This document shows, piece after piece, positions 3,121 to 58,009 of a DNA stretch of 64,000 nt. The notes beneath the pieces are model-generated. The model searched no databases. It was not told where the DNA came from and saw only the letters and a program-made list of their open reading frames with translations. The translations under genes were made by a program, and so were the position numbers. Positions within the stretch are counted from its first letter, which is position 1; each line of letters opens with the position of its first letter. The stretch is taken from contig KV918972.1 of assembly GCA_002049455.2 (NCBI GenBank), positions 62,001-126,000 on the forward strand, given 5' to 3'. Source of the stretch: Porphyra umbilicalis (lineage: Eukaryota > Rhodophyta > Bangiophyceae > Bangiales > Bangiaceae).

Positions 3121-4290
3121 CCGTCAGCCGGGGGCTTCCGACCTGTCTATTTCAAATTTGAGAGCAAATCGTGCACACTCAACATTTGACGCAGTCGGTG
3201 GAGTTACACGAAAACCAGAAGAGTTATTGTTGAAATGTGAAGTCCCTCTGTTGCTTGCGTAAACTGTGAGATGGAATACTATCTTCGAGAACATCTGCAG
3301 GATTATCACTTTGAGATCTATAAAAGGTTATCTCCTGGATTTATGGTCAAACAATTCCGAAGACGATGGCACAGACCGCCCTGGGATTGCTTGGAGAGAA
3401 TCCCGAAGACAGTCTGGAAGCGGACCATGGAATCATTCGGGGAGCAATTTCGCGGATCGTGTCATGACGACTGCGAGAAGACAGCAGGATCGTTGCGGGA
3501 AGCGTTCTAGAGACTGACCTCGACGATAGTCCAGCGACATTTTTCCATCAACATCTTTACTACACAGGTTGCGCAATCGTTTTGCTGATGATGGTTTGGA
3601 GAAAAAGGAAACAGTATTTTCCCTAAACCAGTTCGTCAGGACAGGCCGTTCAAATAGACTTTAGGATCACCCAGAGGCCTGTCAGTGCGCTTGTCTCCGG
3701 CTCTATCTTTTTATACATTCCGTGGGATGGCACGCTGAGTAACCCAAGAAGCCATTCTGATTGACCATCTGCTGATACAGACTGAAGAACGAACTGGAAG
3801 CTCGTCCCACGTTCATTCGCGAGACATTTATTAGGCGACTATCGAGCCACCCTGTCTGTAAGACAGACATAAAAACGATCCTCATCACTGTTCGTTGGGT
3901 AATGTGCCAGCACGATTCCCAGTCCGTCTGAAAGATATACATCAATGTCTGTCCTGGAACCTATCGGGCTGCTCTATTTGTTGCACCTGCTCATGGACTG
4001 TCTGCCAGAAAAACTGCATGATAATTCTGCTGCTCATCTGTTTGTTCATCAGTCAAACACGCTGATTTTCTGCCCTGCAACCAGTCTCAGAGACTGTCTT
4101 CGAGAAAGAAACAAAGACGTGATCAGTTACAGTGCTTCGCTTCATCTACTACGTTGTTCTACGAGACTGTCCTTGGGGCAATGAAAAAGAATAAGTCAAG
4201 GAGAATAATTAACGCACAGAGAGATAAAAGACAAATAAAAAGGAGTAGAAACAGCAACCCCTCAAGCATATGATGATCACTCGGGCTGTT
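3121..4290. other. Non-coding mid-GC stretch, nothing recognised
   Basis: The sequence is clearly AT-richer than the satellite to its left. ORFs here are short (up to ~83 codons), overlap on both strands and show no recognisable motif. The words 'gactgtct' and 'agacagtc' recur (for example near 3,410, 3,850, 3,995 and 4,090), which could be decayed transposon sequence, but no terminal repeats were found. Confidence 0.5.
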
Positions 4291-5073
4291 CTAGTCCGCC
4301 TCTTCATCAGCAGACAGGTTGAACTGAGAAGCAGCAATATCCTTGAGTTCGTCACAGATGCACTGGACAACTGCATTGCGTACGTCCGCGCTGTCCGGCT
4401 GGAAGAGCTTAGGCATCTCGTTCTTCTCAATGTAGCTCTTGATGTGGTGCGCTCCCGCAGCCCGAGTCCCAGCGGTGATGTCCCCGGGGTCGACGCATAA
4501 AAACTCAGCAATAATAGAGGCAGCAGTCGCCTCCAAGTCGAGGAAGCACGTGGCCCTGGCGTCAGAGTCGTCGAGTACCAGCTGGTATCGAGTAACCCGG
4601 TCCGAGACAGCCGCAGTGGCTGGGGCGAGCTGGTCTTCATTTCCGCGTAGCACTTGAAGAGGCTGTATCGTCGCCTGCGGTACGCCAGCGTCCAAGTAGA
4701 CGCCAATCTTGCGGTAGATCATCAGACGCGTAGCGTTTCGTCTGCGGTTGCAAACGTTACGCAGCTTCCTGTTCAAAGCCACCTTGTACTCGTTCTTTTT
4801 CCCAATGCGACCGGCCACCGTAAAGTCGATCTTGGACACGGCCTTGTCGACAGCCCGCTCCATGGCGGTACGAAGGCATCTTGCACTGTCCTTCTTAGGC
4901 CCTTCCAAGTGGCCTTTCGGGCAGATCCACGTCAGGCAGTCATGCTTTGGGGCGTCTAGGTGGTTCTCAATACGCCCAGCGTCCATCTTGTTCTGATAAA
5001 TAGCACGCACCATGTTCTGTCCGTACCGAGCAAACTCAGAGCACACAGCCGACTGAAGAAATAAGGAGGACAT
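4291..5073 (-). CDS. Hypothetical protein, 260 aa
   Basis: A 260-codon ORF of ordinary amino-acid composition, in a region where chance ORFs are short. The N-terminal third has paired cysteines and histidines (CLTWICPKGH near residues 47-56). A basic helical segment with many Arg/Asn follows (RKLRNVCNRRRNATRLMIYRK, ~113-133), then a mixed alpha-rich C-terminal half ending in an acidic tail (SADEEAD). There is no signal peptide or membrane segment. I do not recognise the family. It could be a host gene or an accessory ORF of a transposon, because it lies among repeats. The start is the first ATG; an internal ATG at residue 21 is also possible. Confidence 0.5.
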   Translation of the reverse strand: MSSLFLQSAVCSEFARYGQNMVRAIYQNKMDAGRIENHLDAPKHDCLTWICPKGHLEGPKKDSARCLRTAMERAVDKAVSKIDFTVAGRIGKKNEYKVALNRKLRNVCNRRRNATRLMIYRKIGVYLDAGVPQATIQPLQVLRGNEDQLAPATAAVSDRVTRYQLVLDDSDARATCFLDLEATAASIIAEFLCVDPGDITAGTRAAGAHHIKSYIEKNEMPKLFQPDSADVRNAVVQCICDELKDIAASQFNLSADEEAD

Positions 5074-6250: not shown

Positions 6251-7110
6251 TCAGGGGACGCCCACACGGGTCCGAGCATGTCGCGTGCGGCGAGCGGTAG
6301 TAACGAGCGGTCTCGTCAGTACCTCGTCCGAGGGGCGAAGCGAGATCTGCGTGGACGACCTTTGCGAAAGTTGCCGTTGTCCATACCGCGATTGTCGCAC
6401 GGTTGTATTGTGCCCTTACGGAGACGTGCCGTCACGGTGATCGAGCGCTCCATGGAACCCAAAGATCGTCGAGGCGCGCAGCGCGGGCGCAGGACTTCGC
6501 CGCATGCTCGCACAAGTGACCATGTGAAGAGCTTTGGTGCGATTTTCTTTGGGGGCTACATCCATCACTGATAGGTGCAGCCTGCCTAAACAAGGCAATG
6601 TCAGGCTCCCAGGGGTGTCACGTCTCGAATGGGCGCAGTTGAAAGTCATTAACGTCTTTTTGTCGGACACAATTTTACCGGATCATTTGCCAATGGTAGT
6701 TTATTCCGACAGCTGTCCGGAGGAGAGCAGCTCGATCTGTGCGATCAATCGAGGTTGCGATCACGGATCATGGAAGCGCCGCCACCACAAATTGGACAAT
6801 TCAGATTGCTGAGCAGGCTACCCGACCGGGTACCGGATTGGGGTTAAGATCGAACGAGCGACCCGCTGCGGCCGGGCCGTGCGGGAACACCTCTCTTTGT
6901 CGGTCTGTGCGCACGTCGAAGGCCCGTCTTGCTCGAACGCGTCTCCTTCGCGGGGCCGTCGGCACACCGCAACTGCCGTGCGCCGCGCACGGCGACCCGT
7001 ACCGGAGGTGACGCACGCCCCCGGGCTGTGCTCCCTTAGAGCACCTGGTTGATAGACGCACCCTGAGATTTGTGCGGTCCGCTCATACACATGCTAAGGC
7101 CGGGTTGCTG
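6251..7110. other. Intergenic, nothing recognised
   Basis: Mid-GC sequence with only short overlapping ORFs (the longest are ~97 codons). No domain, RNA gene or terminal repeat was recognised. Confidence 0.4.
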
Positions 7111-10100
7111 CGGTCTGACGCACCCTTCGGGTTGTGCGCTACCTTTACCCGCTCGCACTCGCAAACGCACGCCGCGCCCCGTGCCTGGGTGTGACGCACC
7201 CGTCGGGTTGTGCGCCCCGGTTTTTCCGCGCCCACTTGGTCTGGTGCCGCGCGTCGAGTTTGTGGGTGAAGCACCCTTTGGGTCGTGCTCCCCTGTCGTG
7301 CGCACGCTGTTGGTTGTGCGCGCCGCCCCGTTGTCTGCGGTTGACGTACCCTTCGGGTTGTGCGCCCCGTCTTCCTTAGCGCCCAATTCCTCTGGTGCCG
7401 CGCGTCGAGTTTGTGGGTGAAGCACCCTTTAGGTCGTGCTGCCCTGTCGTGCGCACGCTGTTGGTTGTGCGCGCCGCCCCGTTTTCTGCGGTTGACGCAC
7501 CCTTCGGGTTGTGCGCCCCGTCTTCTTTAGCGCCCACTTGCTCTCGTGCGGCGTGTCGGGATTTGTGGGTGAAACACCCTTTGGGTCGTGCTCTTCTGTC
7601 GCGCGCACGCTTTTGGTTGTGCGCGCCGCCCCGTGTTTCGGGTTTGACGCACCCTTCGGGTTGTGTGCCCCTTTTTTCTTCAGCGCCCACTTGCTCTCGT
7701 GCGGCGTGTCGGGGTTTGTGGGTGAAGCACCCTTTGGGTCGTGCTCCGCTGTCGTGCACACGCTTTTGGTTGTGCGCGCCGCCCTGTTTTCTGCGGTTGA
7801 CGCACCCATCGGGTTGTGCGCCCCGTCTTCCTTAGCGCCCAATTCCTCTGGTGCCGCGCGTCAAGTTTGTGGGTGAAGCACCCTTTGGGTCGTGCTGCCC
7901 TGTCGTGCGCACGCTTTTGGTTGTGCGCGCTGCCCCATTGTCTGCGGTTGACGCACCCTTCGGGTTGTGCGCCCCGTCTTCCTTAGCGCCCAATTCCTCT
8001 GGTGCTGCGCGTCGAGATTGTGGGTGAAGCACCCTTTGGGTCGTGCTGCCCTGTCGTGCGCACGCTGTTGGTTGTGCGCGCCGCCCCGTTTTCTGCGGTT
8101 GACGAACCCTTCGGGTTGTGCGCCCCGTTTTTCTTTAGCGCCCACTTGCTCTCGTGCGGCGTGTTGGGGTTTCTGGGTGAAACACCTTTTCGGTCTTGCT
8201 CCCCTGTCGTGCGCACGCTTTTGGTTGTGCGCGCCGCCCCGTGTCTCGGGTTTGACGCACCCTTCGGGTTGTGCGCCCTTTTTTTCTTTAGCGCCCACTT
8301 GCTCTCGTGCGGCGTGTCGGGGTTTGTGGGTGAAGCACCCTTTGGGTCGTGCTCCCCTGTCGTGTGCACGCTTTTGGTTGTGCGCGCTGCCCCATTTTCT
8401 GCGGTTGACGCACCCTTCGGGTTGTGCGCCCCGTCCTCCTTAGCGCCCAATTCCTCTGGTGCTGCGCGTCGAGTTTGTGGGTGAAGCACCCTTTGGGTCG
8501 TGCTGCCCTGTCGTGCGCACGCTTTTGGATGTGCGCGCCGCCCCGTCTTCTGCGGTTGACGCACCCTTCGGGTTGTGCGCCCCTCTTTTCTTTAGCGCCC
8601 ACTTGCTCTCGTGCGGCGTGTCGGGGTTTCTGGGTGAAGCACCTTTTCGGTCTTGCTCCCCTGTCGTGCGCACGCTTTTGGTTGTGCGCGCCGCCCCGTG
8701 TTTCGGGTTTGACGCACCCTTCGGGTTGTGCGCCCTTTTTTTTTTTAGCGCCCAGTTGCTCTCGTGCGGCGTGTCGGGGTCTGTGGGTGAAGCACCCTTT
8801 GGGTCGTGCTCCCCTGTCGTGTGCACGCTGTTGGTTGTGCGCGCCGCCCCGTGTTGCGGGTTAGACGCACCCTTCGGGTTGTGCGCCCCGTCTTCCTTAG
8901 CGCCCAATTCTTCTGGTGCTGCGCGTCGAGTTTGTGGGTGAAGCACCCTTTGGGTCGTGCTGCCCTGTCGTGCGCGTGCTGCTGGTTGTGCGCGCCGCTC
9001 CGTCTTCTGCGGTTGACGCACCCTTCGGGTTGTGCGCCCCGTCTTCTTTAGCGCCCACTTGCTCTCGTGCGGCGTGTCGGGATTTGTGGGTGAAACACCC
9101 TTTGGGTCGTGCTCTTCTGTCGCGCGCACGCTTTTGGTTGTGCGCGCCGCCCCGTGCTTCGGGTTTGACCAACTCTTCGGGTTGTGCGCCCCTTTTTTCT
9201 TTAGCGCCCACTTGCTCTCGTGCGGCGTGTCTGGGTTTGTGGGTGAAGCACCTTTTGGGTCGTGCTCCCCTGTAGTGCGCACGCTTTCGGTTGTGCGCGC
9301 CGCCCCGTTTTGTGCGGTTGACGCATCCTTCGGGTTATGCGCCCCGTCTTCCTTAGCGCCCAATTCCTCTGGTGCTGCGCGTCGAGTTTGTGGGTGAAGC
9401 ACCCTTTGGGTCGTGCTCCCCTGTCGTGCGCACGCTTTTGGTTGTGCGCGCCGCCCCGTGTTTCGGGTTCGACGCACCCTTCGGGTTGTGCGCCCCTTGT
9501 TTCTCTAGCGCCCACTTGCTCTCGTGCGGCGTGTCGGGGTTTTTGGGTGAAGCACCCTTTGGGTCGTGCTCCCCTGTCGTGCGCACGCTTTTGGTTGTGC
9601 GCGCCGCCCCGTTTTCTGCGGTTGACGCACCCTTCGGGTTGTGCGCTCTTTTTTTCTTTAGCGCCCACTTGCTCTCGTGCGGCGTGTCGGGGTTTCTGGG
9701 TGAAGCACGCTTTGGGTCGTGCTCCCCTGTCGTGCGCACGCTTTTGGTTGTGCGCGCCGCCCCGTTTTCTGCGGTTGACGCACCCTTCGGGTTGTGCGCA
9801 CCGTTTTTCTTTAGCGCCCACTTGCTCTAGTGCGGCTTGTCGGGCTTTCTGGGTGAAGCACCCTTTGGGTCGTGCTCCCCTGTCGTGCGCACGCTTTTGG
9901 TTGTGCGCGCCGCCCCGGTTTCTGCGGTTGACGCACCCTTCGGGTTGTGCGCCCCTTGTTTCTTTAGCGCCCACTTGCTCTCGTGCGGCGTGTCGGGCTT
10001 TCTGGGTGAAGCACCCTTTGGGTCGTGCTCCCCTGTCGTGCGCACGCTTTTGGTTGTGCGCGCCGCCCCGCGCTGCGCGTTTGACGCACCCTTCGAATTG

Positions 10101-12690
10101 AGCGCCCCGTTTTTCTTTAGCGCCCACTTGCTCTCGTGCGGCGTGTCGGGGTTTCTGGGTGAAGCACCCTTTGGGTTGTGCTCCCCTGTCGTGCGCACGC
10201 TGTTGGTTGTGCGCGCCGCCCCGTTTTATGCGGTTGACGCACCCTTCTAGTTGTGCGCCCCGGTCTTCTTTAGCGCCCAGTTGCTCTCGTGCGGCGTGTC
10301 GGGGTTTCTGGGTGAAGCACTCTTTGGGTCGTGCTCCCCTGTCGTGCGCACGCTGTTGGTGTTGCGCGCCGCCCCGTGTTGCGGGTTTGACGCACCCTTC
10401 GGGTTGTGCGCCCCGTTTTTCTTTAGCGCCCACTTGCTCTCGTGCGGCGTGTCGGGGTTTTTGGGTGAAGCACCTTTTGGGTCGTGCTCCCCTGTCGTGC
10501 GCACGCTTTTAGTTGTGCGCGCCGCCCCGTGTTCTGCGGTTGTCGCACCCTTCGGGTTGTGCGCCCCGTCTTCCTTAGCGCCCAATTCCTCTGGTGCCGC
10601 GCGTCGAGTGTGTGGGTGAAGCACCCTTTGGGTTGTGCTGCCCTGTCGTGCGCGTGCTGCTGGTTGTGCGCGCCACCCCGTTTTCTGCGGTTGACGCACC
10701 CTTAGGGTTGTGCGCCCCTCTTTTCTTTAGCGCCCACTTGCTCTCGTGCGGCGTGTCGGGGTTTCGGGGTGAAGCACCTTTTGGGTCGTGCTCCCCTGTC
10801 GTGCGCACGCTTTTGGTTGTGCGCGCCGCCTCGTGTTCTGCGGTGGACACACCCTTCGGGTTGTGCGCCCGGTCTTCCTTAGCGCCCAATTCCTCTGGTG
10901 CCGCGCGTCGAGTGTGTGGGTGAAGCACCCTTTGGGTTGTGCTGCCCTGTCGTGCGCACGCTGTTGGTTGTGCGCGCCGCCCCGTTTACTGCGGTTGACG
11001 CACCCTTTGGGTTGTGCGCCCCTTGTTTGTTTAGCGCCCACTTGCTCTCGCGCGGCGTGTCGTGGTTCGTGGGTGAAGCACTACTTGGGTCGTGCTCCCC
11101 TGTCGTGCGCACGCTTTTGGTTGTGCGCGCCGCCCCGTGTTTCGGGTTCGACGCACCCTTCGGGTTGTGCGCACCTTGTTTCTCTAGCGCCCACTTGCTC
11201 TCGTGCGGCGTGTCGGGGTTTCTGGGTGAAGCACCCTTTGGGTCGTGCTCCCCTGTCGTGCGCACGCTTTTGGTTGTGCGCGCCGCCCCGGTTTCTGCGG
11301 TTGACGCACCCTTCGGGTTGTGCGCCCCGTTTTTCTTTCGCGCCCACTTGCTCTCGTGCGGCGTGTGGGGCTTTCTGGGTGAAGCACCCTTTGGGTCGTG
11401 CTCCCCTGTCGTGCGCACGCTTTTGGTTGTGCGCGCCGCCCCGTTTTCTGCGGTTGACGCACCGTTCGGGTTGTGCGCCCCTCTTTTCTTTAGCGCCCAC
11501 TTGCTCTCGTGCGGCGTGTCGGGGTTTGTGGGTGAAACACCCTTTGGGTCGTGCTCCCCTGTCGTGCGCACGCTTTCGGTTGTGCGCGCCGCCCCGGTTT
11601 CTGCGGTTGACGCACCCTTCGGGTTGTGCGCCCCTTGTTTCTTTAGCGCCCACTTGCTCTCGTGCGGCGTGTCGGGGTTCGTGGGTGAAGCACTATTTGG
11701 GTCGTGCTCCCCTGTCGTGCGCACGCTTTTGGTTGTGCGCGCCGCCCCGTGTTTCGGGTTCGACGCACCCTTCGGGTTGTGCGCCCCATTTTCTCTAGCG
11801 CCCACTTGCTCTCGTGCGGCGTGTCGGGGTTTGTAGGAGGAGCACTATTTGGGTCGTGCTCCCCTGTCGTGCGCACGATTTTGGTTGTGCGTGCCGCCCC
11901 AAGTTTCGGGTTTGACCCACCCTTCGGGTTGTGCGCCCCGTTTTTCTTTAGCGCCCACTTGCTCTCGTGCGGCGTGTCGGGGTTTCTGCGTGAGGCACTC
12001 TTTGGGTTGTGTTCCTCTGTCGTGCGCACGCTGTTGGTTGAGCGCGCCGCCCCGTTTTCAGCGGTTGACGCACCCTTCGGGTTGTGCGCCCCGTTTTTCT
12101 TTAGCGCCCACTTGCTCTCGTGCGGCGTGTCGGGGTTTCTGGGTGAAACACCCTTTGGGTCGTGCTCCCCTGTCGTGCGCACGCTTTTGGTTGTGCGCGC
12201 CGCCCCGTTTTCTGCGGTTGACGCACCCTTCGGGTTGAGCGCACCGTTTTTCTTTAGCGCCCACTTGCTCTCGTGCGGCGTGTCGGGGTTTCTGGGTGAA
12301 GCACCCTTTGGGTCGTGCTCCCCTGCCATGCGCACGCTTTTGGTTGTGCGCGCCGCCCCGTGTTTCGGGTTTGACGCACCCTCCGGGTTTTGCGCCCCGG
12401 AATTTCAGCGCCCACTTGCTCTGGTGCCGCGCGTCGGGTTTTCTGGGTGAAGCACCCTTTGGGTCGTGCTCACCTGTCGTGCGCGCGCTGTTGGTCGTGC
12501 GCGCCGCCCCGTCTTCTGCGGTTGTTGCACACTTCGGATTGTGCGCCCCGTTTTCGTTAGCGCCCATTCGCTCTGGTGCTGCGCGTCGGGTTTGTGGGTG
12601 AAGCACCCTCTGGGTCGTGCTCCCCTGTCGTGCGCACGCTGTTGGTGTTGCGCGCCGCCCCGTGTTGCGGGTTTGACGCACCCTTCGGGT
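7111..12690. repeat. Hairpin satellite, 151-153-bp unit, ~36 copies
   Basis: Successive ttgacgcaccc landmarks lie at 7341, 7492, 7644, 7797, 7948, 8099, 8252, 8405, 8556, 8709, 8862 and 9013, giving spacings of 151-153 bp. Each unit carries two versions of one short motif, GCACCCTTCGGGTTGTGC and GCACCCTTTGGGTCGTGC, about 75 bp apart. Each can fold into a stem closed by a TTCG or TTTG loop. Two unit types alternate: type A (cccaattcctctggtg) and type B (cccacttgctctcgtg). Because 153 is a multiple of three, runs of 153-bp units stay open for hundreds of codons on both strands. The resulting ~51-residue repeats have no domain signature and I do not call them genes. Confidence 0.9.
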
Positions 12691-13450
12691 AGTGCGGTTC
12701 GCGCTTGCGCACGTGCAACACCGTCAATTGGGTGGAGCGACGCACCCTCCGTGTCGTGCGGCATCACATCGGGCGTGTCCCCCAATTTGTCGGTCGAGCG
12801 ACGCACCCTTCGGGTCGTGCGGCTTCCCCGCACAGAGGGACACACGGGGCGACGCACCCTTTGGGTTGTGCGGCCCGCGCTAGTGCCTGCGCGGTGCAGA
12901 GCGGCGTGTGGTGCTTTGCACCCTTGTTGTTGCGGGGTTTATTTTGCCGCAACCCTCGGGCTGTGCGTGGGATTTCCGGCGCAAGCGACGCGCCGACCGC
13001 CGCGCGAGCGACGCACCCTTCGGGTCGTGCGGCTCTGTCCGGCGCAAGTGTCGCATTGCCAGACAAGTGGAGCGACGCTCCCTCCGGGTCGTGCGGCTCC
13101 TCTTCGTGCTCGCCCCGATCCAAGCGGCGCTGAGAGCGACGCAACCTTCGGGTTGTGCTGCTCGAGCCTGTGGCTGAGCGGTGCGGCGCGGCGTGTGGTG
13201 GTTTGCACCCTTCTTTTTGCGCAGTCTTCTTTGTCGCACCCTTGGGGTTGTGCGGATTCTTTTCGCGTAAGAGACGCACCCTTCGGGTTGTGCGGCGTGC
13301 TGGGACGCACCCCTCGAGTTGTGCGGACTTCCCTGGCGTACGCTGACCTCCGGGTGGCGCGTGTAGTGGCTCGCCCTTTGGTTTGTGCGGCTTTCCGTTG
13401 TGCGCGAACGTGTGCACGTGTGTGCTTTCTGGCGCACCCTTGAGGTCTTC
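12691..13450. repeat. Dispersed copies of the satellite hairpin motif
   Basis: Beyond the regular array the core gcgacgcacccttcgggtcg and its variants continue at irregular spacing (~12,738, 12,797, 12,849, 13,006, 13,070, 13,135, 13,230, 13,270, 13,303). Unlike in the array, the sequence between copies is not conserved. The stem bases are kept better than the surroundings. Confidence 0.75.
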
Positions 13451-13609
13451 CGCGTCCGCCGGCCGTGTCTCCTGGACTCGTGAGTCTCCCCGCCGGTTTT
13501 TTACGCCCGTCACCGTCAGCACGCACGTGCCACGCCGCCCACGCACCCCCCCGAAGTTGCGCTCCGCCGAAGAGTGCCCGCCAGTGTCTGTCAGCTTCCA
13601 GGATCCAAG

Positions 13610-16600
13610 ATGGATGGGGGCCAGCCTCTACCGCAAGATGGTGCGAGTCGTAAGCGCAAGCAGCCGACGCAGGCGGCTCGAGCCAATGCAGACGGGGACA
13701 ACAGTGCTGCCGATGAGGCTGTGGCTTCGGCCGGTCGTGCTTCACGTGACCATGCGGCGGGCTCTCACGCACCAAAGCGATAACGTGTGCGGCGTGGCTT
13801 GCGCCGCGCAGGCGGGACGGCACAAGAGCGGCGAGAAGGGCAACGTGGTGTCACTTCGGGGGGCGGGCCGGCATGGATCGTTCGGGCAGCTGCGGCGGGC
13901 GCTGTGCCGTGGCCCGGGTCTGCGGAATTTGGGACTGCTGGGACGCGTCAGCCCCCGTCTTACACGTACAATCCGTTCTTGCCGCCGTCTGCTCCGGCAC
14001 ATGCTCATCCATACGACGCATATCATGCTCCGTATGGCGCTTTTCCAGCGGTCGCACCTTCACCGCTGGGGTATCCCGCGCTTGCACCACCCTGTTACCC
14101 CCCCACAGCTGCCTACTGCCAGGCCACTCCTACTGATCCCGTTTTACCACAAACGCCGCAGATCCCTCGTGATGCGTACCCGGCACCGGTGCACCCCCAT
14201 TCGGACGGTGCGTTACCTCCACGCAAGAGAACGAGGATCAACTTCCGTGAGTCTCACGGACGTGCTGGGGAAACTTCCGTCGGACGCTCGGACCGCTCCT
14301 CAAGCCCACCCGTTGACTTCTTGACAACTGTGCTGGAAGACGTCGGTATGGGGCAACAAGATCGCAAAGGCGGTCCGTGTTCGCTTGCAGTGGGCAGCGT
14401 AATCAGCGCTCTGCGGTGCGCTGGGCCAGCTGTGGACATGGATGTCACTTCCAAGGCAGTGGACAACTGTACAAGTAGGGGTGGGAATGCTGTACGATTG
14501 GGCAAGGGGCTGTGCGCCGCATCTCGCATGTTGAGGGGCGGCTCACCACTAGATGCGGTGGTGCGATACGCTGCATCCATGGTAGCGACCAACTGCTGCC
14601 AAGGGCATTTCCTTGCTGTGCCCCTCAATGGAGGTGAGGCGTCCTATGCCACACCCTCACAGCGGCCATCTCTTCCTCACCAAGTTCCTCCCGGATCGTC
14701 GCGCGCTTCGCCAATCGCAGAATTCGTGACTGGAGCCCCTGACCAACGCCGTCGTGGTCGTACTCCCGCACCTGGTGCCATCTTGGTGGCGTCAACGCCC
14801 CGGTCACCCCCCCATGAGAGCTCACTCCCCACCGCCGACGTTTCCCGTTCTCTCGGATTTGGCTCTCAGCGACCTGGCCGCAGGGATTCTCCTCCGCGTC
14901 GTGGCGAAGGCCGTCTTGGGGTAGTTGCCCCCCCTCGCCCGCGCTTCCGCGAGCAGCGTGGCTTGCTTGAGCCGATGCTGTCGTTGGACCGGTTGAGCGA
15001 CCACGAGACCATACCCGTGACATCTTCTGGTCTTGGACGCAAGGCCGTGTTCTCTTTCAGGCTGATGGACACGCTCACGGCGTGGCTGAGCTGTGAGACG
15101 GCAGACCGGCGTCAGCGCACGACGTTGCATCTGCCGTCCTGGATTGGGACCGATCGCAACGAAGGTCGAGCCGTTGAGTTCTTGTGTAACTCCGTGCGGT
15201 CGCGGAGGGACTCGCGCGTGGCACGCTGGTTCTCTGCGAGCTTGTTAGTCGCCCCTGCGTAACATGGCGGGAGATGGTTTGCTATCATCTTCGTGGGGTT
15301 GGCGCAGGACATGCCGATGCTGTGCCGGGAGAACGATGCCGACGAGCAGCGCAACAAGTACTCGTGGTCGTCTTCTGTGCGGGTGATGGACCCGACTGGA
15401 CGGTCGAGTGACAGAGCTGTGGATGCATGCGTCTCGTTCCTTTTCCGAGTGCTAAGCGCGGCAATGAGCCGCTGCTTTGTTGAAGGTAGCGACGCTAGTG
15501 AAGGCGCCCGTGTCATCGAGCGGTCGCTTCGGCGCTACTTGACTGTTTCGCGCATGCAACAGCCGGACGGACCAGAGGAGGACGGGGGGTGTCTTTTGCT
15601 TTCTCTTTTATGTTTCTTAATGTGCTCTACCCCGCCACACGCAAGCAAGCTGCTGCATGGCGCCACCGACACCGACTGGACAGGCGCAGTGAACACAAGC
15701 TCAGTCGCGAGCAGCTTCCTGGACCTGGTGCAAGCTGCGCGGCCAAATTCATCCATCGAAGAGCGACGTCACGGTGCGGACGCACGTCGTTTCCTACTTG
15801 TGAGGGGTCCGTGGAAAGCTGGGGAGGCTCGGAGTCCGTCCGCATCCCTTCCAAAGGACACACTGCCTGTTCGTGGCCCTGTGTCTCCTAATCTCGCGGC
15901 CGATCCCGCACCGGTCAACTCCCGCGGCGGCGACGACGCGTTGACGAGCCGCCGTGCTTCCGCCGCGTCGCTATCAAGCCGACCGGCAGCCGCACGGGAG
16001 TCTTCTGCAGAAGACCCGTTGCTTCGTCTTGGTGCACGTCTGAAGCGGTTGCAACCTGTGTTGAAGGCGCGCCAGAGGGACACTGGCGAAGCGTCACTCG
16101 TCAATAGTGACGAGAGGCGAGAACGTGGAACCAGTCGTGGTGCCAGCGCTTCTGATGCGGCGGTTGCCGTCAGAGGGAGTGTCGACATCACGCGTCGTCG
16201 CCCCAGCCCTCGTCCCGCTGAGCCCCTCCGTGATGGCCGTTCAGGACGCGGTATGAGCTGCCAAGAGCAAGCCGGCGTCCTTTCTGGTCGCTGGCATGAC
16301 GACGATGAAGACGATGGGCCTGCGTCCGGAAGGGATCCACGTCGGTCACCACATGACCAAGACACCCGTGGTGAGGCGGCTGCATCTGCGCGGGAGTCGG
16401 CGAGAGCGGGCAACCGCTACCCCGTTCCGCAGCCAGTGCTTTTGGCGTCTGCCACGCCGCCACGCCATTTGAGCTTGACGCGACCATCACCGCCGTCCTG
16501 TTGGAGTCAACCTGTAATTGAGCACTTCAATGCGTTGCTTTCGACGCACGGCAACAACTGGAGATCGATGATGTCGCAGCTGTCGACCGAGGTTGTGCCT

Positions 16601-19348
16601 CGCGACGTGCGGCGTCACTTCCTTGCACACTTCCTCCTCTCCGACGCTAGTAGCGACTCGGCGCACGGCCATTGCAATGGTGGAGTGGGGCGACGCGACA
16701 AGCCGCGTGGCGACGCCGCTCAACCTTTGGGCAACGATATCGACGGGCGGCGCCTTGCTCATGGCGGTGAACCTCAGGTGCCGCTGCACCACCCCACTCG
16801 CAGTGTCGTCGATGATGGACATGTCAGCGAAGCGAACGTTGCAACTGCTCCTGCGGACGACGTCTTGGCCAGTGCTGCAAGCTTGCACCGAGATGATGGG
16901 GATGCTGAGAACGCTGGTGGCCTAGGTGTGTCTATTAAAAGAGTGCAGGGTTGGACGCATGGTGTTGTAGGTGGAGCTGCTGTTGAGAAGGCGGGAGCTG
17001 CTCGATACGCGACGCCTCCGAGAAGCAGATCATCACCACCCACTACAGGGAGGAACAGAGGATTACCACCCACCGTCAGCTTCCCCGCACCACTGGGCTC
17101 GGGCATAGAGGTGGTTGTTGACTGCGCTGTTACGGAAATGAACGCGCGCCGACTGGCCAGGAAGCAGCGCGTTGCGGCGGTAAGTGAGTTGCCAGAAAGA
17201 CACACGGGTTCCACCAACAGCCACAAGTCGCTTTCGAGTGGCACTTCGGGCTCGGCGTCATCTAAATCGAGCGCATGCCCGTCATCGGGAAGTAGCGGTT
17301 CGAGTGCGACCCCCAGCTCCTCGTCAACTAGTGGCGCCTCTTCGGCCTCTTCGTCTGCAGCGAACCGCTCCGGCTCCGAGAGCATGTTTCCGAGGGAGCC
17401 CTATGGTTTGACGCACTCATCCGATGGGTGGGGTTCCCGTGTGGCCAACAATTCCTCCAAGGACGCGTCACCGTTCTCGTCAAGCTCATCACGCAGCGAG
17501 ACAGAGTCTGTTTCGTTGTCACAACGTACGTACAACACGGCGGCCTCCGCGGGGCGACACCCAGACGTCAAAAAAGTGGTCGGCAACGAGATGGTTGCAA
17601 AAGAAGCACGACCGCCTAAGAATGCCAAATCCATCGTGGCAGCTTGGGTCGTGCCCGTAAATGGTCCACTGCACGGTGTTCCATACTTGATTCGCCAACA
17701 AACTCGAACACTTGAGACGGACGGAGTGGTTATTCTCCGCGTCAGTCGTGACGTGCGGCCGTCGGAATGTGCTCTGCCTGCAGACGGAAAAGTGTCAGTG
17801 CGGCGCCAAAAGGTTCCATCCTATCCCACAATTGTCAGCACAGACATGAGTGACCCGGACATTTCAGGTCGGGAGACGCCGACATTGGGACATCTTTTGC
17901 CCAGCTCGACGGTGAAGCAGATGACACTGAAGGAGGCAGCAGTTGCGACTCGGCTGAGCTCGAGAGCACTGCAGGCTGCCTTTCCCGGGTTCAACGAGCA
18001 GCTCTTTGTGGAAAACATTAACGAGGCCGGTCTCTTTTGGGAAAAGGTCGCCGTTTCCGGCAAGCCCAGCGCAGACGGTTCTGTGACAGGACGAGAGCCC
18101 TGTTTGCAGTACACCCGAAGGCCAGCTGTCGATGCGATTGACCTGTTCTATTCCAGCGACGTTCTCCCGAGTCCTGCCGACGGGCTGAGCCGCAGCCCTG
18201 GCGATCCGATGTTTGCCTGTCAGACACCGCACCTTGTCCCATCCAGTCGACTGGCGAGTCCGAGAATCCTGAACCACTTTGGTATGGCGCAGGCCTGCAC
18301 GACGTACGAGGGCATGACAACGAACATGCTCTATCGCGGGTCACTTGGGACGATGTTCCCGTGGCATGTGGAAGACAGCATGCTTCCCTCGGTATCATAT
18401 TGCCAGTCGGGAAAGCCCCAGGTATGGTGGGTCGTGCCGGCACATCAGAGATCACTTGTCAAAGCTCTCTTACTGAAGTACATTGATCCATTCGTGTTGA
18501 CCGCGGCAGACGGAAACATCTGGGACGTCCTGGCCAGCAAGCGTCTGTTCTTTCCACCGACATTTTTCCTAGAGCACGGTGTTCAGGTCACACGAGCCGA
18601 GCAGCAGGCGGGCGACTTCATTGTGACGGCCTCTGGGGCCCTCCACAGTGGGATGAACCTGGGTGTCAACCTCACGTCGGCTACCAATTTCCCTACCCCC
18701 AGCTGGTGGCGCCTGGGAATTGAGCATGGCGCGTGCGCGCGAGAGTTGGACCGCCACGTGCCCTATCCTCTGGAGAAGATGATAATACAGTCATCTCAAC
18801 AATTGGTGGCAGGGAAGTGGTGGTGGGGAGACGCGAACATCCTGAAAGCGTGCGATCCCGAGCACTTCTTCATGGACGTCAAGGTGGCCGAGAAGTTCGT
18901 CTCCGAGTGCGTCGATCGCATTACGGCATTTGTCAACTCTCGAGACGGCAAAGTGTTGGTGGTGCCTTTCTCTGGCGTATCGGAAGCCGTCCGAGAGTTC
19001 CTCTGGATGGCCCGCACACCACCGTCCACAGAGTCAAACGACATGCGCGTCGACCACTCCAAAGACGGTGCCCTGTGCAAAGACTGCAATGCTCTCTGCT
19101 GGGCCGCTGCCGTAGTGTGCCCTACGTGCCTTGAGTACTTTGGGAAAAGAGCGCAGGAGCAGGCTCCTCTGTCGTGCTGGCGCTGTGTGTCAAGCACCTA
19201 TGACGAATGGCACAGGGAGGAAGTGGGGAACAACACCTTGGTTGTCGTGAAAGGCTCCCACGAGCCTTTGGTGGTTTCCCGTCTATGTCGGGAGGCTGGG
19301 AAGCAGCTCGTTCGCGGATTGAGGAGACTGCTTCAGCGGGTGGCATGA
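13610..19348 (+). CDS. JmjC-domain protein (KDM4/KDM5-like), reading frame interrupted by two TAA codons
   Basis: Three same-frame segments (13,610-13,783; 13,787-15,262; 15,293-19,348) are separated only by TAA codons at 13,781 and 15,260. The first starts at ATG 13,610 and has a basic RKRK cluster typical of a nuclear protein. The second is Pro/Tyr-rich, then mixed. The third (~1,350 codons) has a long Ser/Thr-rich linker and then a JmjC fold. Its Fe(II) ligands are seen in FPWHVED (His-x-Glu, ~18,365-18,373) and LHSGMN (His ~18,644); YCQSGKPQVWWVVPA is the usual strand after the HxE motif. A C-terminal Cys cluster (CKDC, CPTC, CWRC, ~19,075-19,180) resembles the C5HC2 zinc finger of KDM5/JARID proteins. 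Family members are 2-oxoglutarate-dependent histone lysine demethylases. The TAAs could lie in short introns, be inactivating mutations or be sequence errors; I found no frame-preserving GT-AG intron across the second. GC content is well below that of the genes after 29 kb. Confidence 0.75.
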
Positions 19349-19801: not shown

Positions 19802-22765
19802 TTATACCATTGCTGGTCCGCCGTCGGCGGCTGCCGATGCAGTCTGGGGAGAGCCCCCGTTGACGACCAAGTGACGTACCCGAGGCAACCACCGTTGGCA
19901 TGAAAAGGAAACCTTTTTCTCAATTGTAGCGACGTCAAGCACGCGGTAGAAATGCAACTCGGCCACAGCTTCGGGCACAGATTGTGCCGCGTTCGCATCC
20001 GTCTGCGTCGGAGGGGTTTGCAGCACGGCAATAGTGGCACCTGCATGCACTTTGAAGAGATGGCGGCTGCTCTTTGCGCTCTTCCAGAATCTCAATACCC
20101 TGCCAGCGGCGTATTGGATCCAAAAAGCGCTGACGTGCGAGCATTGCTGCACTCCTCGTGTCGACCACGCCTCAGTACGCCTGTCGGGAAACCAAGAGCC
20201 AAATCCGAGCTTATGCTGAAGCACAGCTTCCGTTTCCTGTCCGTTAGGGTCTGTCAGCCACTCCTGTGGAATGCCGTACTTTGCTGGAGCGGCAACAACC
20301 CTGGAAAGCATCTCAACATCCCGCCATCTCTGCATCGAGAAGCCAGCAGGATCATGGCTGTTGCTCCGCTCAATTTCTCTCTTGGAAACTTGATGGAACT
20401 TTTCGAACAGCAGCTCGCATATGGCCGGCCCAATTTGAACAAGTGGCAGGGTCCGATAGAGAAGCTCGAGGACTCTGTGCACGCTTGGCTTTTCCCAGTT
20501 GATCCCTTTACTTGTGAGGGAGGCGAGCTCGTTGAGCAGAGAACACCCCAACAGCTGTAGCGTGTGAACGGTTGGCTTGCAGCGGACGGCATGTTCCCCG
20601 TCGTTCCGAATTGTTGGGCGGAAGAACAACGCGTTTGTAAACGCACGTAGAGCTTTGAGCGCCGCAAGAACCGACACTGCCAACGCCGGTAGAACGGTTT
20701 GTGAGTGCATGTCATCCAGCACTGTCGGAGCAATAGTGAGAAGAACAGCGTAATCGGACATGGACAAGGTTGTGCCACCCATCTTCTCTGGCTCAAAGGC
20801 CTTGAGAACGGTATGTCGGGGTACATACCGGGAACACGCACGCATGTCTTTCACAAACTCATCCCTTTGAAGGACTGACAGCGCATTGTAAACCTGTTGA
20901 AGTAGCGGGCCGGCTAGATTGAAGAATAGCAGATGAGATGGCGCCACTATGACGTGCTCGTGGACGTCGAAAGAACCAGCCTCACGTGCCTCGGACAAAC
21001 CCATGAACTGGTCGCCAGGACCTTTCTGCATCCCGTTCAGCAAAAGCGCTGCTTTTATGGTTGCCTCAGAGCTCAGGCCAGCACCAATGACAGCGCGCTG
21101 CACAGCAACAGTACGTTCTTGGACGCGGGCATATCGAGCGTCTCTGACTTCAAAAACCGTCGTGCTGCTCATCGCGCGTTCCTTTCTTTCAGAAGTCGTC
21201 TTTAGACCGACAATATCGCAGCTAGTACAGTGCTCCACGCCGGTAGCGCCAATTGTATTGGATAGCTTAGCTGCCATTGGAGAGTCAAAGATGCCAGCGG
21301 CAGGATAGATGTGCACCAGTGCATTTTTCCCTGTACAAGCGTCATACACTGTAATCCCAGTTTTGGAGGCGTGGCATAGGTCCTTGACAACGGCGGATAT
21401 CAATGGCGCGCTAGCAGCGCCCGGCGGAAGATAAAACAACGGACGCACAGTTGAACTCTGAAATTCAAGTGATACAGATGTGTAGGCGCCATAGTGCCCC
21501 TCAACATCACCACGCCGACGCTTCATGGTGCCGTACTGGTCGCCATACCACGACACAAATATCTTGTACGGATCCTTCGGCACGAGCTCGGCGTCTTCCC
21601 TGACGACAGCTACGTCCACTTTCATGCTGGACACGGTAGATACAGCGTTCCATGCAATTGGAGCTCCCTCCTGGACACCCAGGACGCGCATCGCATGTAT
21701 GGTCCCGCACCTTGTGAATCACGCAGTGAAAGTCCCGTTTCTCGTCAAGCATAAGGATAGTAGCGCCGGTCGAGCCGAATGTTCGGTCAGCATAAACGTG
21801 GCAGTCAAGTCTCCGACACGCAGAGCATGACCGGAGGCATATTCTGATGGCGACAAAGACACTTGGCCGTCTGTGGCCATCCCCGTACTCTGTAGCTCGG
21901 CCTTGAGCCTCACCGACGCCGATGTGGCCATGGAGACAATGTTTCCGAGCGCATACAGCCTGCCGTCCAGTCTAATCTGACGTCGAAAGTTATAGCGCCC
22001 AGGATCGGTCGCCGCCACTGTCTGGAAGAACTCTGTTGGGCTGTCCACTGTCCCAAGCAATGCGTCACCCTCATCATGAAAAATGGCGGCTGTCAATGAG
22101 TCGGCAAAGTCTCGCCTCACATGTTCTGAAAAGGTCGTGTACGGCACGACAACGTCAGGAAGCGTCCTTGATGACTTTCCTTTGCCCGACGGGAACTGCC
22201 TGGATGTAACCTACTTTTTCACACGTGCAGCTGCGAGCAGGAGCTTTGCTCTCACTTGCTGCAGACGCCACCGGGATGGCCACTTCTCTGTTGCCGAGAA
22301 TGAGTTCTCTACGCTGCGCATGATGTCGTACTGTTTTGTTGACAACCGTGCACGCCCATACAAATAACCGTAACAGAGCAGCTCCCGACGAGAAGAAAAG
22401 CTGGCACTGTCCTCATCTGAAAGACTGGAGAACTCAGTGTCGGTCGTTGTCGCGGACGGACTACTTCCGCCTTTGTCCACGTCCACGTCGCCACCGCCAA
22501 GAGAAGGCACGGGAGGAACCATAACAGGAAGCACGTGAGGGGCACCATGTTCCGCCTCACCGTCACTCCCAGATCTCGAGCCATTCATCTCAGCGCTGCC
22601 ACGAGCGTGAGGCAACGAAGCGCATGAGGCTCCAGGGGCGCTCACATGAGCAGACGCCTGTCCCACAGAGTGACGAGGCACAGGCACAGGTTCATCACTC
22701 TCAAAAGAAAAGTAAGCGGACGCACGAGGTCCACGCTTCCGTCTCTTTGACCCATTCATGCCCAT
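19802..22765 (-). CDS. DDE-type transposase, CACTA/Plavaka (tnp2)-like, in three same-frame segments
   Basis: Three minus-strand segments in one frame (22,765-22,211; 22,147-21,719; 21,691-19,802) total ~980 codons. Segment 1 starts with a basic KRRKRG patch and Ser-rich linker and ends in a helical LSTKQYDIM...WPSRWRL block. Segment 2 continues through LPDVVVPYTTF. Segment 3 has IFVSWYGDQYGTMKRR, a DSPMAAKL..G..G..HCTSC block and a long helical C-terminal half. The aspartate-plus-CxxC arrangement recalls tnp2-type transposases of CACTA/Plavaka (CMC superfamily) elements, but assignment is tentative. The first interruption (TAG at 22,211) is removed by a possible 48-nt GTAGGT...CAAG intron that keeps frame (exon junction V-K-K-T-L-P-D). 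The second (TGA at 21,719) is unresolved. No terminal inverted repeats were found around the gene. Confidence 0.5.
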
Positions 22766-23086
22766 AGCTCCGATCGATAGACTTGCTCTCTTTGACAGTG
22801 CCAGTAACTGGACGGCGGACGGGCTCGACTCATGGGGCAGAAGGGGGTACAGGGAGCAGCCAACGGCCTGAGCACTGCAAGATGTTGCTTACAGCTGAAG
22901 TGAGGGATCTCTCGGACCCGTCTGATGCCAGGCACGTTTGGTACACCTATCCGCAGGACGTGCGCCTGAGCTGTCGAGCTGATCGTCTTCCGATGAGCCC
23001 ACCTGAATGGGTTCACGACCGCACTCCTAATAATAATTGCATGTCCAGCAGACAGGTTAAACGGACCGTCCCAGGGGCTGTCCGTC

Positions 23087-23171: not shown

Positions 23172-26100
23172 GGGCGGTTCCAACAGTACCGGTACGAACC
23201 AAGATATGCGCCACGTTGCAGAAACGTGTCTCATATGGCCCTACGTGTCCGGAAATGACGTTCCACCAACAGTACGAGGCTGTCCGGTCCGGAAACGCCC
23301 CTCCAGCCACTTAGATTTCCATGGTAAGTACATCTTGAATGAAGCGAATAAGAATCCCGATACCAACTCTGCGTCCGAAAAAACGGCCCTTTTTCCGGAC
23401 GTCTGGCGCCGCTTCGGATTGAGATTGGCCCAGTTCGGCCGTTTCGGCATCGAATGTGGGCCTCTGGCACTCTCGAACCCCTGAAAGGACGATCGCAGGG
23501 GTTGCCACGTGTGGTCCGGAATCAGGAGGAGCGGTGGCGGATGACGCGATGTCTCGCGAGCCGCAAGATTCTTGTGCGCTGGGCCCACACGATGCGCTGG
23601 CCTCTCTGATACTGGCCCAGCTCGCCAGAAGCAGGGGTTGCGGCTGGCGAGGTGGTCCGGGCGCCGACCATGTGGTCGGTTGACACAAAAAAGCAGGGTT
23701 CGTCGCTCCGACAGTGCGAGAGGTGGTGGATTTGATGGGTGGGCCCTCGTCGCGATGCCGACAAGGAGGTGGCCTGGAGCCGTCTGAAACGCCAGTGTGT
23801 GGGTGCAACAGTGGAAGAAAGCGTCAGAAAGTGGGGGGGTGGGGGATCGATTGGGGGGTCGGGCGGGAGGACTGGCGAGGTGCTGTCACCTCCCCCCGTT
23901 CCAGATCGGTCGGCTGGGCCGGTAGGGCGCCGTCGCCGGCGTCGCTGTCGGCGACGTCCTTTTTGTCGACGCTTCGTGATCGCCGTCTTCATGCCGCACG
24001 ATATCGAGAGTTGTATCACTACCTTTTTTGTCGGTGTGCACACCACGTGCATCTTCGACCTGTGCACGACTGACCGCTCTTAAGGACTCCCGCTTCGCGG
24101 TACGTATGGCAGGGTTCTCTCTCTGAAGCGAGGAAGCTTCGTATGGACGATTATTACCACTGATTGTGAGGTACTCGAAGAACGGGGAGACAGCTTCTAC
24201 AACTCTTTACGGCAGGGGCAGGTTGCTGATCAACTTTCCACGCTTTGAATGGATTGCACTGTTGCATTCTTACGGTTCCCTTTCCACACAGGTGCTTCTG
24301 CCAGCCTTGAGGAAGCGGTGGCGGCAGCACTTCGAAAGGAGCAGCCGCCGCGCCGCGGCCGCCTCATCGGCGTCGCGCCGCTGCCGCCATGGCATTTGTG
24401 CGCTCTTGCGTACCGGCAGAAGCCCGTAGGCCGGCGCGCGACGACGCGTCGCGGCACCCCCGTGGCGGCGAGAGGAGGCGGCCGCCGTGCGGCCGCCGTC
24501 CCACGCGCGTGGCACCCGGCAGCGGTATGAGATGGTGGGGTGTGGGTTGACGGGCGAGGCGTTGTGGGGCGTCACAGCCTCTTGGGCCGTAGTAGTCGAG
24601 GGCGGATGGGTGGGCGGGCGCGCAGCGGCACGCCCGTGTGCGGCCTAAGGTCGGCGCGCACGGCCTGTGAGCGGCGGCCACGGTGGGCCGCTTCTTGCGC
24701 CGTCGGCCGACAGAGCGCGGGCGTTGCGGGAAAGAACGTGCGTGGTCGGTGGGGGGGGACGCACTAAGGGGATGAAGCTGGTGGGGGGCCCTGCTCCGCG
24801 TGGCTAGAGACAAGAGCGCAGGCGGCGATGACATGAGGATGCGAGGGGGGGGTTCCTCTCGGGTCTAGTGCGTGTGTGTGCTCGACACCAGCATAGACGA
24901 GACACACTCGGAGGGGGGGGGTTGTGCTTTTTTGAGGTCATTCTTTCTCCGCCGTAGCGCTCTCCTGGTCGCAGTTTTTCGAATGGCATTTTCCTAGGCT
25001 GTTCGTTGCCCATGTTCCTTCTGTGAGAAGAGGTCGTTGTCTTGATGCTGGGCTTGGCCGGGCTATTCCCAGCCAAGCCCCTCTCCTTGTAAAACCCAGC
25101 GGTACGCCCCATCCCGGGCGCGCCCCGCTGTCTGGCATCCGTCCAATCACGGACAACACCACCGGCGGTCGTCCTCGCGCGCGTCCTCGCGCTCGGCCTC
25201 GCGCTCGGCCTTGCGCTCGGCCTCACGCCCGTCCTCGCGCCCGGCCGCGCGCCCGCCTGACGGCGGACACGGTCGGCCGGTACAGTGAAAGCCACCTCTC
25301 GCACATTTCCTTTAAAGTCCCCGTGGGTTTTGGTTGCCCCTCTCGTCGCTCTCCTCGCCCGCTTCAGCGCGGTGGCCGACAGCGGCACTTCGCGTGCTTC
25401 GAGATTGTGCAGCGTTGTGGCCAGAGCGCTTAACCAGCTACTTGCAGCTCGCTCATATCCACTCCTCAACTGAACCCTGATGACCTCCCACAGGGCTCTG
25501 TCGCTTGAGACCCCTACTCCGTGACATCAGACCTCACTGCCGTTCTTTGCGGGCCGCATTGGCTGCCCTCGAGATTCCAAAAAAACGTGCCTGCAACGGT
25601 GCCAGCACAGCGCGGCGGGGGTCGCGGAGGTACCTCCGCTGCGCCTGGGGCGGTCACGGGGGCGTTGCCGGTGGGCGGGAGTCCGCCGCGGCCGCGTTTG
25701 TAGGTGAGGTTACGGCCGCGGTCGCACGCCGCGGCCGCGTTTGCTGCTGGGAGTACTGCCACGGTCACCATTAAGGCGACGACAGGGACTGGGCCGGTGG
25801 CCGCGACCGCACACCTGTAGAGGCGAATGTGTGCGCCAGACGTCCCGTCCACCACCAGGAATGCGCTCCCGGCCTCTCGTCTGTGCAGACGGTGGCCGCC
25901 ACAAACACCACACCGCGTGGTGGCGTCGCAGCCGCCAGTGTGACCCTCAGACCCCCAAAGAGTCCGCCCAGGACGCTGGATGCTCGCTGCACCACACCAT
26001 GCCACCGAGGCCAACATCGAATCCATCCTGTGGCCAGGACAGGCTCGCATCTCGACCGCGCTCAGCCATCCACGGACCAGTCACTGATCCGGGCCTCTAC

Positions 26101-26647
26101 GTAAGGGCCCGCCAGCGACGAGAAAACTGCGCTGCGGCGGAGCTCACCTCAAGAAAGCGTCGGCCTCAACTTCGAGGCCCAAGTGACACGCCGCACACAA
26201 TATTCTGGCTCTGTGGAGCTGTCGTGGCACTCCGATTGGGGCCGACTGAGACCAGATTTCGGGCCAGACAGCTGTATTGCGGCTGAAATGGGCATTCGAA
26301 TAGGCTACGTGTCACATTTCGAAAAATGATCGACAACGATCGTAGCGACAATCGCACCCCAACCCGTTGCTCGCCCACTTTTGCGTCAGGGTAGCCCACG
26401 ATGACGTGTACTCCTGCGCTACTCTTGAAGCTGGCGCTTTCACACCAGATCAGGTCACGCCGGAGACTGTCCGGATCCTGTCCGCATATATCTTCAACAG
26501 TAGCCCACTGTAGCCCCCCCTCGGGCGTAAGTCCACGCTCGTTTCAGCGGCGCTATCGGGACGCCACCCGGACCCAATCAGCGGCCGCCACGCGCAAGCC
26601 AATTGGGAATATTTTAAGGGTTCGTACCGCTGTTGTTGGAACCGCCC
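23172..26647. mobile_element. Non-autonomous TIR transposon, PIF/Harbinger-like, 3.48 kb
   Basis: Both ends carry a 29-bp terminal inverted repeat: 23,172-23,200 and 26,619-26,647. The outer 14 bases (GGGCGGTTCCAACA) and inner 11 bases (CGGTACGAACC) are identical, with a variable 4-base core (GTAC versus ACAG), so at least 25 of 29 positions match. TAA occurs immediately outside both ends (23,169-23,171 and 26,648-26,650). A 3-bp TAA/TTA duplication with GG-starting TIRs is the hallmark of PIF/Harbinger elements. The interior has only short ORFs without a DDE nuclease or Myb-like protein that I can recognise, so it was probably mobilised in trans. Confidence 0.75.
25165..25258. repeat. 12-bp tandem repeat ctcgcgctcggc inside the TIR element
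   Basis: About seven imperfect copies of a 12-bp unit (variants cgcgcgtcct, ctcgcgctcggc, cttgcgctcggc, ctcacgcccgtc). It lies near the middle of the 3.48-kb element. Confidence 0.75.
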
Positions 26648-54624: not shown

Positions 54625-54765
54625 TGTGGCAGAGGGGAGGGTACGTCGTATGGGAGCGAAGTTGGGGGCGATGGTCGAAAATGCGAGTAGGGACATGGGC
54701 TCTGCAGGTGTGGAGCGTGAGATAGCTGGTTGGAGTGGTCCACACAGCAGGCTCAGAACCGCGGT

Positions 54766-57447: not shown

Positions 57448-58009
57448 CAGCGAGAAGCAAGGACCTTGGGGGACAGGGGGGGAGCAAGAAAGGAGAGAGA
57501 GAGCGCGCCCTTCTAGTAATCACCCTCCACCCGCCGTCGCCCGCCGTCCGCGCCGCCACGCCCGTCCACCCGCCGTCTCGTCCCGCGCCGTTGGCGCGGT
57601 GCGCCGTGCGCGCGCTTGGCTGCGTGCGCGTGCATGCCCGGCCGCTGCCGCCGTGCTTGCGTGGCGGGGCCGGGGCGGGGGGTCCCCGTTGCGTTGCCGC
57701 CGCGTTGGCGGCTACGTTGCGGGGAGGGGGGCCGGGGCGGCTGCTCGAGGTTGAGAAGTGCTTGCTGTCTTGGGGGCGCTGCGGCGGCCGTGGCGCGTCA
57801 GCAGTCGCGTCCGTCACGGTCGAGCGTTTGCCCGCCCCCGGCGGATGCTGCCACGTCGGCGGCCGCTGCGGTGCGTCGCCCGTCCCGTTGCGGGCGCCGC
57901 CACGCCGACGGCCGCTGCGGTGCGTTGCCAAATGCGCGCACCGCCGCCGCACCGCCCCCGGAAAGAAATTCCAGTTGCGGTTCCAAAGCAAATCGTTGAC
58001 AGCTGTGCA
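57448..58009 (-). repeat. Left (3') terminal direct repeat of the DIRS element
   Basis: 562 bp, same length and orientation as 62,514-63,075. Differences seen: G/T at ~57,807, C/T at ~57,837, A/G at ~57,963 and T/C at ~58,004. GC-rich, with no gene of its own. Confidence 0.9.

Follow-up and report, generated by a model that had tools for sequence, protein, structure and literature searches.

A dyad-rich tandem array of Porphyra umbilicalis belongs to a CACTA-type transposon carrying a JmjC-domain gene

What carries a tandem array in which one short dyad recurs about a hundred times, and what could such an array be for? We addressed these questions in Porphyra umbilicalis, using 64,000 nt of contig KV918972.1 (positions 62,001–126,000 of the forward strand; hereafter the window, meaning this whole stretch) and a genome of 83.8 Mb in 665 contigs. 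The assembly includes a plastid-type contig bearing psaA, for which the best PDB matches are 7y7a and 7y5e, from the red alga Porphyridium; this makes a red-algal host likely. The regular array occupies 7192–12696 (+ strand), for which TRF gave a period of 153 (and 457), 36.2 copies and 87% matches, and from which 35 units of 151–153 bp were cut by means of a spacer anchor. Each unit holds two good dyads and one weak dyad; in the consensus of the 35 units these read GCACCCTTTGGGTCGTGC, GCACCCTTCGGGTTGTGC and, for the weaker third, GCACGCTTTTGGTTGTGC. This bears out a preliminary description of the locus as 151–153-bp repeats with two hairpin copies each. That description had also counted more than 70 potential hairpins, and 106 sites in 7111–13450 match GCACCCNNNGGGTYGTGC at ≤2 mismatches, against 0 or 1 in 20 dinucleotide shuffles. 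The first good dyad lies at 7120 and is preceded by a degenerate one at 7058–7075 (+). On the right, 13 single dyads with 0–4 mismatches are irregularly spaced over 12742–13388 (+), between spacers unlike those of the array, so that the hairpin is kept there while the spacer is not, just as had been proposed. The stem, previously drawn as unbroken, consists of 6 bp with a 2-nt bulge (GCAC.CC / GG.TY.GTGC). The sense strand of 7111–13609 is A-poor and T-rich (A 0.06 and T 0.30 in 7111–12696).

The dyad extends well beyond the window array. A whole-genome search with the exact 18-mer and a TTY centre returned 94 matches (reversed control, 0), of which 89 are clustered and 5 are lone; the lone ones, on C114, C170, C249 and twice on C247, sit within arrays of more diverged units. 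With the centre left free there were 150 matches genome-wide (reversed control, 0); among the matches listed, one (C80:114992) is isolated, and the centre takes 14 different triplets, or 13 without that isolated match.

In a BLASTN search with window positions 1–25000, the flanks of the array proved to be repeated as well: all 14 other loci retrieved by way of the motif contain them, with about 65–97% identity over the longer pieces. Comparison with these loci located both ends of a whole transposon copy at 3262–26865 (+), bounded by a 2-bp target duplication, TA, at 3260–3261 and 26866–26867 (+). Both ends were found in six copies (window, C91, C164, C31, C90 and C114), all six with a duplication of 2 bp, TA or CA, as expected from the 2–3 bp of CACTA/EnSpm elements; the left end alone was recognized in C170, C173 and C194, and the right end alone in C4, C180 and C249. 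The termini, CACTGTGAG... (in the window AACTGTGAG) and ...CGGTGTG, agree with the canonical CACTA...TAGTG in part, keeping CAC/GTG and departing from it at the fifth base. The array belongs to a CACTA-type transposon, and what moves is the whole transposon and not the hairpin, for which a role as the mobile unit had been suggested. A retrotransposon identity was dropped once the large open reading frame (ORF) proved to encode a JmjC protein. In its right part, the window copy was later interrupted by a foreign insertion at 23172–26647 (3.48 kb, 30-bp inverted ends at 90%, TAA on both sides), which we take to be PIF/Harbinger-like; its site is empty in other copies of the element. Outside the element, the window contains a GC-rich 263-bp tandem repeat of 6.6 copies to the left of the element (510–2277), a 25-bp double repeat found both at 57584–57633 and at 62650–62699, about 5 kb apart, which suggests a local duplication, and a 1061-aa ORF at 51511–54696 (− strand) with malectin, glucose/sorbosone dehydrogenase and TIG domains.

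Within the element, the array lies between a gene for a 260-aa protein and the JmjC-protein gene, and its length ranges from 1 to 35 anchor-to-anchor units among copies. The 260-aa ORF (4291–5073, −) is 92–95% identical in five copies and 40% identical in a distant family, has no Pfam family above cut-off and yields a poor structure prediction (pLDDT 50.5). The JmjC-protein gene (13610–19348, +) runs in one frame, with in-frame stops in the window copy; in the C91 copy 1781 codons are open, and its JmjC end also has two stops. The first ATG of this frame follows the last dyad at a distance of ~0.2 kb and the end of the regular array at ~0.9 kb. Its JmjC domain (18329–18691, +; Pfam PF02373, E = 6.7e-19) retains the HxE...H iron triad in the window, L016, C8 and C284; the putative 2-oxoglutarate position, placed by reference to KDM4, is Gln in the window and Lys in L016, C8 and C284. 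Upstream in the same frame, 15026–15826 (+) is equivalent to a domain modelled in L009:7800–8600, which is predicted to adopt the Ulp1/SENP (C48) fold. Here HGGRW, VMDP and EDGGC resemble the catalytic His-Asp-Cys of Ulp1, at spacings that differ from those of the known motif and with the His missing in C27. In other families, C8 and C27 among them, the JmjC gene region holds long tandem repeats with a period of 108 or 174 bp, internal to the gene and largely in open frame (L050:6362–8501, L051:5594–8832 and L052:6471–8376).

Tail-to-tail with the JmjC gene lies a transposase gene of the tnp2 type (19802–22939, −), interrupted by stops. Pfam Transposase_21 was recognized above its cut-off of 28.6 in the C8 relative (33.7 bits, E = 2.7e-8) and below cut-off in the C284 relative (3.3e-4), the window copy reaching only E = 0.081; the open L017 ORF gave no Pfam match to it. 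Through the C8 relative, the family can be assigned the tnp2 transposase that marks CACTA/EnSpm elements. Among the matches listed, a tail-to-tail JmjC–transposase pair within ~1.2 kb occurs at 24 of 32 JmjC loci and at 24 of 45 tnp matches. Pfam scans of the element's ORFs and pieces returned no match to DUF1985, DUF287 or MuDR.

Protein similarity (37–39% identity) identified six further families, five of them readable upstream of the JmjC gene, and a tandem array is present there in all five: 197 bp × 11.2 in C8, 200 bp × 3.2 in C27, 155 bp × 16.2 in C284, 163 bp in at least 3.2 copies in C288, beginning ~0.7 kb upstream of the ORF, and 162/325 bp in C157. For C157, the first 9 kb (L052) lie inside the gene and the array came from a second, 2-kb piece taken after the pattern was known; this piece has no protein match, and the array in it stops ~40 bases short of an ATG compatible with where the gene is extrapolated to begin, the recognizable N-part following after a further 1.7 kb that lies outside the stretches read. 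The sixth family, C80 (L055), has no recognizable JmjC N-part and was left out of the count. By BLASTN, only the C8 and C27 arrays and the window family's own 153- and 52-bp types are related to each other. Distantly related families thus have arrays in the position that the window array takes ahead of its JmjC gene, and that relatives have other arrays in this position suggests that the arrays help the elements to escape silencing.

The window family comprises two array lineages, with 153-bp and 52-bp units, which can also be compared gene by gene. The N-part of the JmjC protein is the most divergent part, at 41% identity between lineages (75–94% over pieces within the 153-bp lineage; 88% within the 52-bp lineage), against 65% (C31) or 74–81% (C90, C173 and C194) for the JmjC end, 81% for the transposase and 92–95% for the 260-aa protein.

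Whether the dyad is itself preserved depends on where one looks. In the 52-bp lineage (57 units, 4 loci) the arms, at 0.97, are the best conserved stretch of the unit, equalled in 0 of 51 circular shifts, against 0.88 for the rest of the unit and 0.74 for the loop, where conservation within the motif is lowest (individual spacer positions are at least as variable). In the window array the arms reach 0.954 versus 0.916 at other positions, and 26 of 152 shifts are as good, which comes close to the equal divergence of stem and flanks that the preliminary description had named as evidence against its proposal. The arms are favoured in L009 (4/151 shifts), L010 (4/150) and L014 (7/150), and not in L011 (36/150), L015 (32/150) or the consensus of loci (29/149). 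What the dyads retain is two half-sites, GACGCACCC and GGGTYGTGCG, which take in bases beyond the stem; with centre and spacer changing around them, they look like a candidate protein site, and homogenization within arrays could contribute to their retention. The preliminary interpretation is upheld in part: the motif outlasts its spacers and occurs elsewhere, whereas the UUCG loop is its least conserved part and the window arms are not clearly better kept than the rest. For the window, CpG decay was rejected as the source of the TTCG/TTTG and TC/TT variants, as C-to-T change in the 35 window units is 0.030 at CpG and 0.031 at other C; the outcome in four other arrays was mixed.

These data bear directly on the preliminary proposal of a structured RNA or UUCG tetraloop array, which we now consider very improbable. 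The loop, far from being a conserved UUCG on a paired stem, varies more than any other part of the motif (0.74; 14 centre triplets among the matches listed), which speaks against selection on a cUUCGg tetraloop, and GCTTGC has replaced one arm in about half of the L021 units and seven-tenths of the L022 units while the partner arm stayed as it was, so that these stems are broken without compensation. Single units of the window array fold only slightly better than expected by chance (z −1.2 and −1.7), and z is +0.5 and −0.4 for the irregular zone and −0.9 for the 52-bp unit; exceptional RNA or DNA folding of the window array was accordingly discarded. Strongly folding units do occur in two other families (C8, z −6.9; C27, z −3.6) and mildly folding ones in L021 (−2.1) and C288 (−2.0), yet z values under −2 are also reached by 5 of 58 control segments taken from genes or intergenic DNA; the C157 units give −1.05 and −2.2. 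(A stretch at L052:5430–5590 with z −7.8, at first considered as the C157 array, proved not to be the array of that family.) Inverted-repeat coverage exceeds all 200 shuffles in C8 and is high in C284 (8/200 shuffles as high), and is ordinary in the window (64/200), the 52-bp lineage (200), C27 (47), C288 (97) and C157 (35); because it is unusual only in C8 and C284, we do not claim hairpins everywhere. A centromere or replication element, likewise proposed, found no support here, and a protein-binding array remains the best of the options first put forward.

Tandem arrays readily arise without function, and the window array might simply be a GC-rich stretch expanded by unequal exchange. The unremarkable window arms and the range from 1 to 35 units between copies accord with this, but arrays recur at one position in five of five readable distant families, of which only two have BLASTN-related arrays, and half-sites stand out in the 52-bp lineage (0/51 shifts); we regard purely passive origin as rather unlikely. 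Plant CACTA elements have subterminal repeats as transposition-complex sites, and the dyads could by analogy be sites for the transposase or a TnpA-like protein required in cis for movement. Six short derivatives (L011, L014, L018, L020, L021 and L022) are what one might expect of such sites, retaining ~2.9 kb of the left part or some of it, the array in inverted orientation and 0.9 kb of the right part, without the JmjC gene and most genes in between. Against this, their shared breakpoints make them look like one founding event that then multiplied, they were found via the array itself, and a terminus is recognized on the left in only 2 of 6 and on the right in 4 of 6; moreover, ~3.9 kb separate the array from the left end of the element, and it does not occur at both ends. 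A requirement in cis for movement is therefore, in our judgement, also rather improbable.

A somewhat better candidate, though still unlikely, is that the array serves the JmjC gene as an enhancer or as a long 5′ leader that host factors read, with no element-encoded binder. That it precedes the start in the window family, as arrays do in the five readable distant ones, fits this reading, as does the composition of the sense strand, which in all arrays measured is low in A and high in T (AT skew −0.13 to −0.65; C157, −0.31 to −0.5). ATG is rare, observed versus expected counts being 4 versus 43 in the window leader, 2 versus 15.9 in C8, 0 versus 3.9 in C27, 0 versus 6.7 in C157, 4 versus 27.1 in C284, 2 versus 10.0 in C288 and 2 versus 4.9 in L016, all in tandem copies that are not independent. 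However, CAT, which is ATG on the opposite strand, is likewise rare in most arrays, so the scarcity is not clearly start-codon avoidance, and the six short derivatives keep the array inverted after losing the JmjC gene.

The reading we favour, and to which we would give about an even chance, is that the array is a cis-regulatory repeat array of a giant CACTA/EnSpm-type transposon, bound by an element-encoded protein that lifts silencing. Each unit would be a cluster of putative dyad binding sites (RACGCACCC-NNN-GGGTYGTGCG); the binder, most likely the fast-evolving protein with Ulp1-like and JmjC domains, would remove silencing marks once on the dyads and so keep the genes and ends of the element usable; and array and protein would change together from family to family, in the manner of VANC proteins and the sequences they target in Arabidopsis VANDALs. 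In favour of this reading count the copies of the same element at 14 of 14 motif loci, the 2-bp target duplications, the tnp2 transposase of the C8 relative, the tail-to-tail gene pairs, the arrays upstream in other families, the half-sites kept while centre and spacer change, the divergent JmjC N-part and the variable tandem repeats targeted by VANC. Counting against it are the window dyad, not clearly better conserved than the rest of its unit (26/152 shifts), the Gln at the putative 2-oxoglutarate position and the broken frame of the window copy, together with a JmjC protein that has no certain DNA-binding domain (a Myb-like match reaches E = 0.22 only). We infer more broadly that the array may be a target or leader array that keeps the element's genes unsilenced through the JmjC protein or a partner. 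The boldest version, a CACTA lineage with a chromatin eraser of its own, in which a Ulp1-like–JmjC fusion would recognize its family-specific array, strip marks and co-evolve with it independently of plant VANC, is put forward as a tentative and rather doubtful possibility.

How does this element compare with known systems? Maize Spm is a CACTA-type element whose TnpA sites are short subterminal repeats; the window element is similarly of CACTA type with a second protein and differs in its long internal array and JmjC protein. The transposase of VANDAL elements is of the MuDR type, whereas the present element has a tnp2-type transposase, and JmjC and Ulp1-like domains, read here from the sequence alone, instead of DUF1985/DUF287. 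KDZ transposons, reportedly described by Iyer and colleagues in 2014 as carrying TET/JBP genes, are likewise DNA transposons with an iron/2-oxoglutarate oxygenase acting on chromatin, from a different oxygenase family and with a different transposase. In passages of PMC5735166, VANC targets are tandem repeats that vary between related transposable elements, and VANC proteins have variable regions bearing tandem peptide motifs. The likeness to VANDAL/VANC, as far as passages of PMC5735166 and PMC10398659 describe it, lies in a transposase that is conserved, a second protein that evolves fast and noncoding tandem repeats that vary from one related element to another, and noncoding tandem arrays of this kind are found in the window family and its distant relatives. 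Endogenized giant viruses of Amoebidium carry KDM4-like JmjC genes (PMC11244446, in part); they too are selfish DNA with a gene resembling histone demethylases, are not CACTA elements and have no arrays in the passages of that paper covered here. The nearest known group is formed by the giant En/Spm (CACTA) families of Chondrus crispus, 16–20 kb with 4–5 ORFs (Kojima, Bao and Jurka 2013, Repbase Reports, as cited in part of PMC6431247), which, going by that citing description, share with the window element the CACTA type, a red-algal host, this size range and extra ORFs; part of the present finding may already be in Repbase. Among the publications listed by literature searches, no title or abstract opening mentions a CACTA transposon that carries a JmjC gene; this coverage took in neither Repbase Reports nor most subscription journals.

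Sequence-specific anti-silencing is known for VANDAL/VANC and demethylation for Spm/TnpA, where the second protein, TnpA, activates the methylated element (PMC10398659); both systems are from flowering plants. If the proposal is true, a red-algal CACTA element with a histone-demethylase-type gene beside a fast-changing array would be an independent case of anti-silencing that works by a more direct chemistry. It would further point to a reason why satellites borne by transposable elements form, namely as binding platforms, and the many related families within one genome make the co-evolution of protein and target testable.
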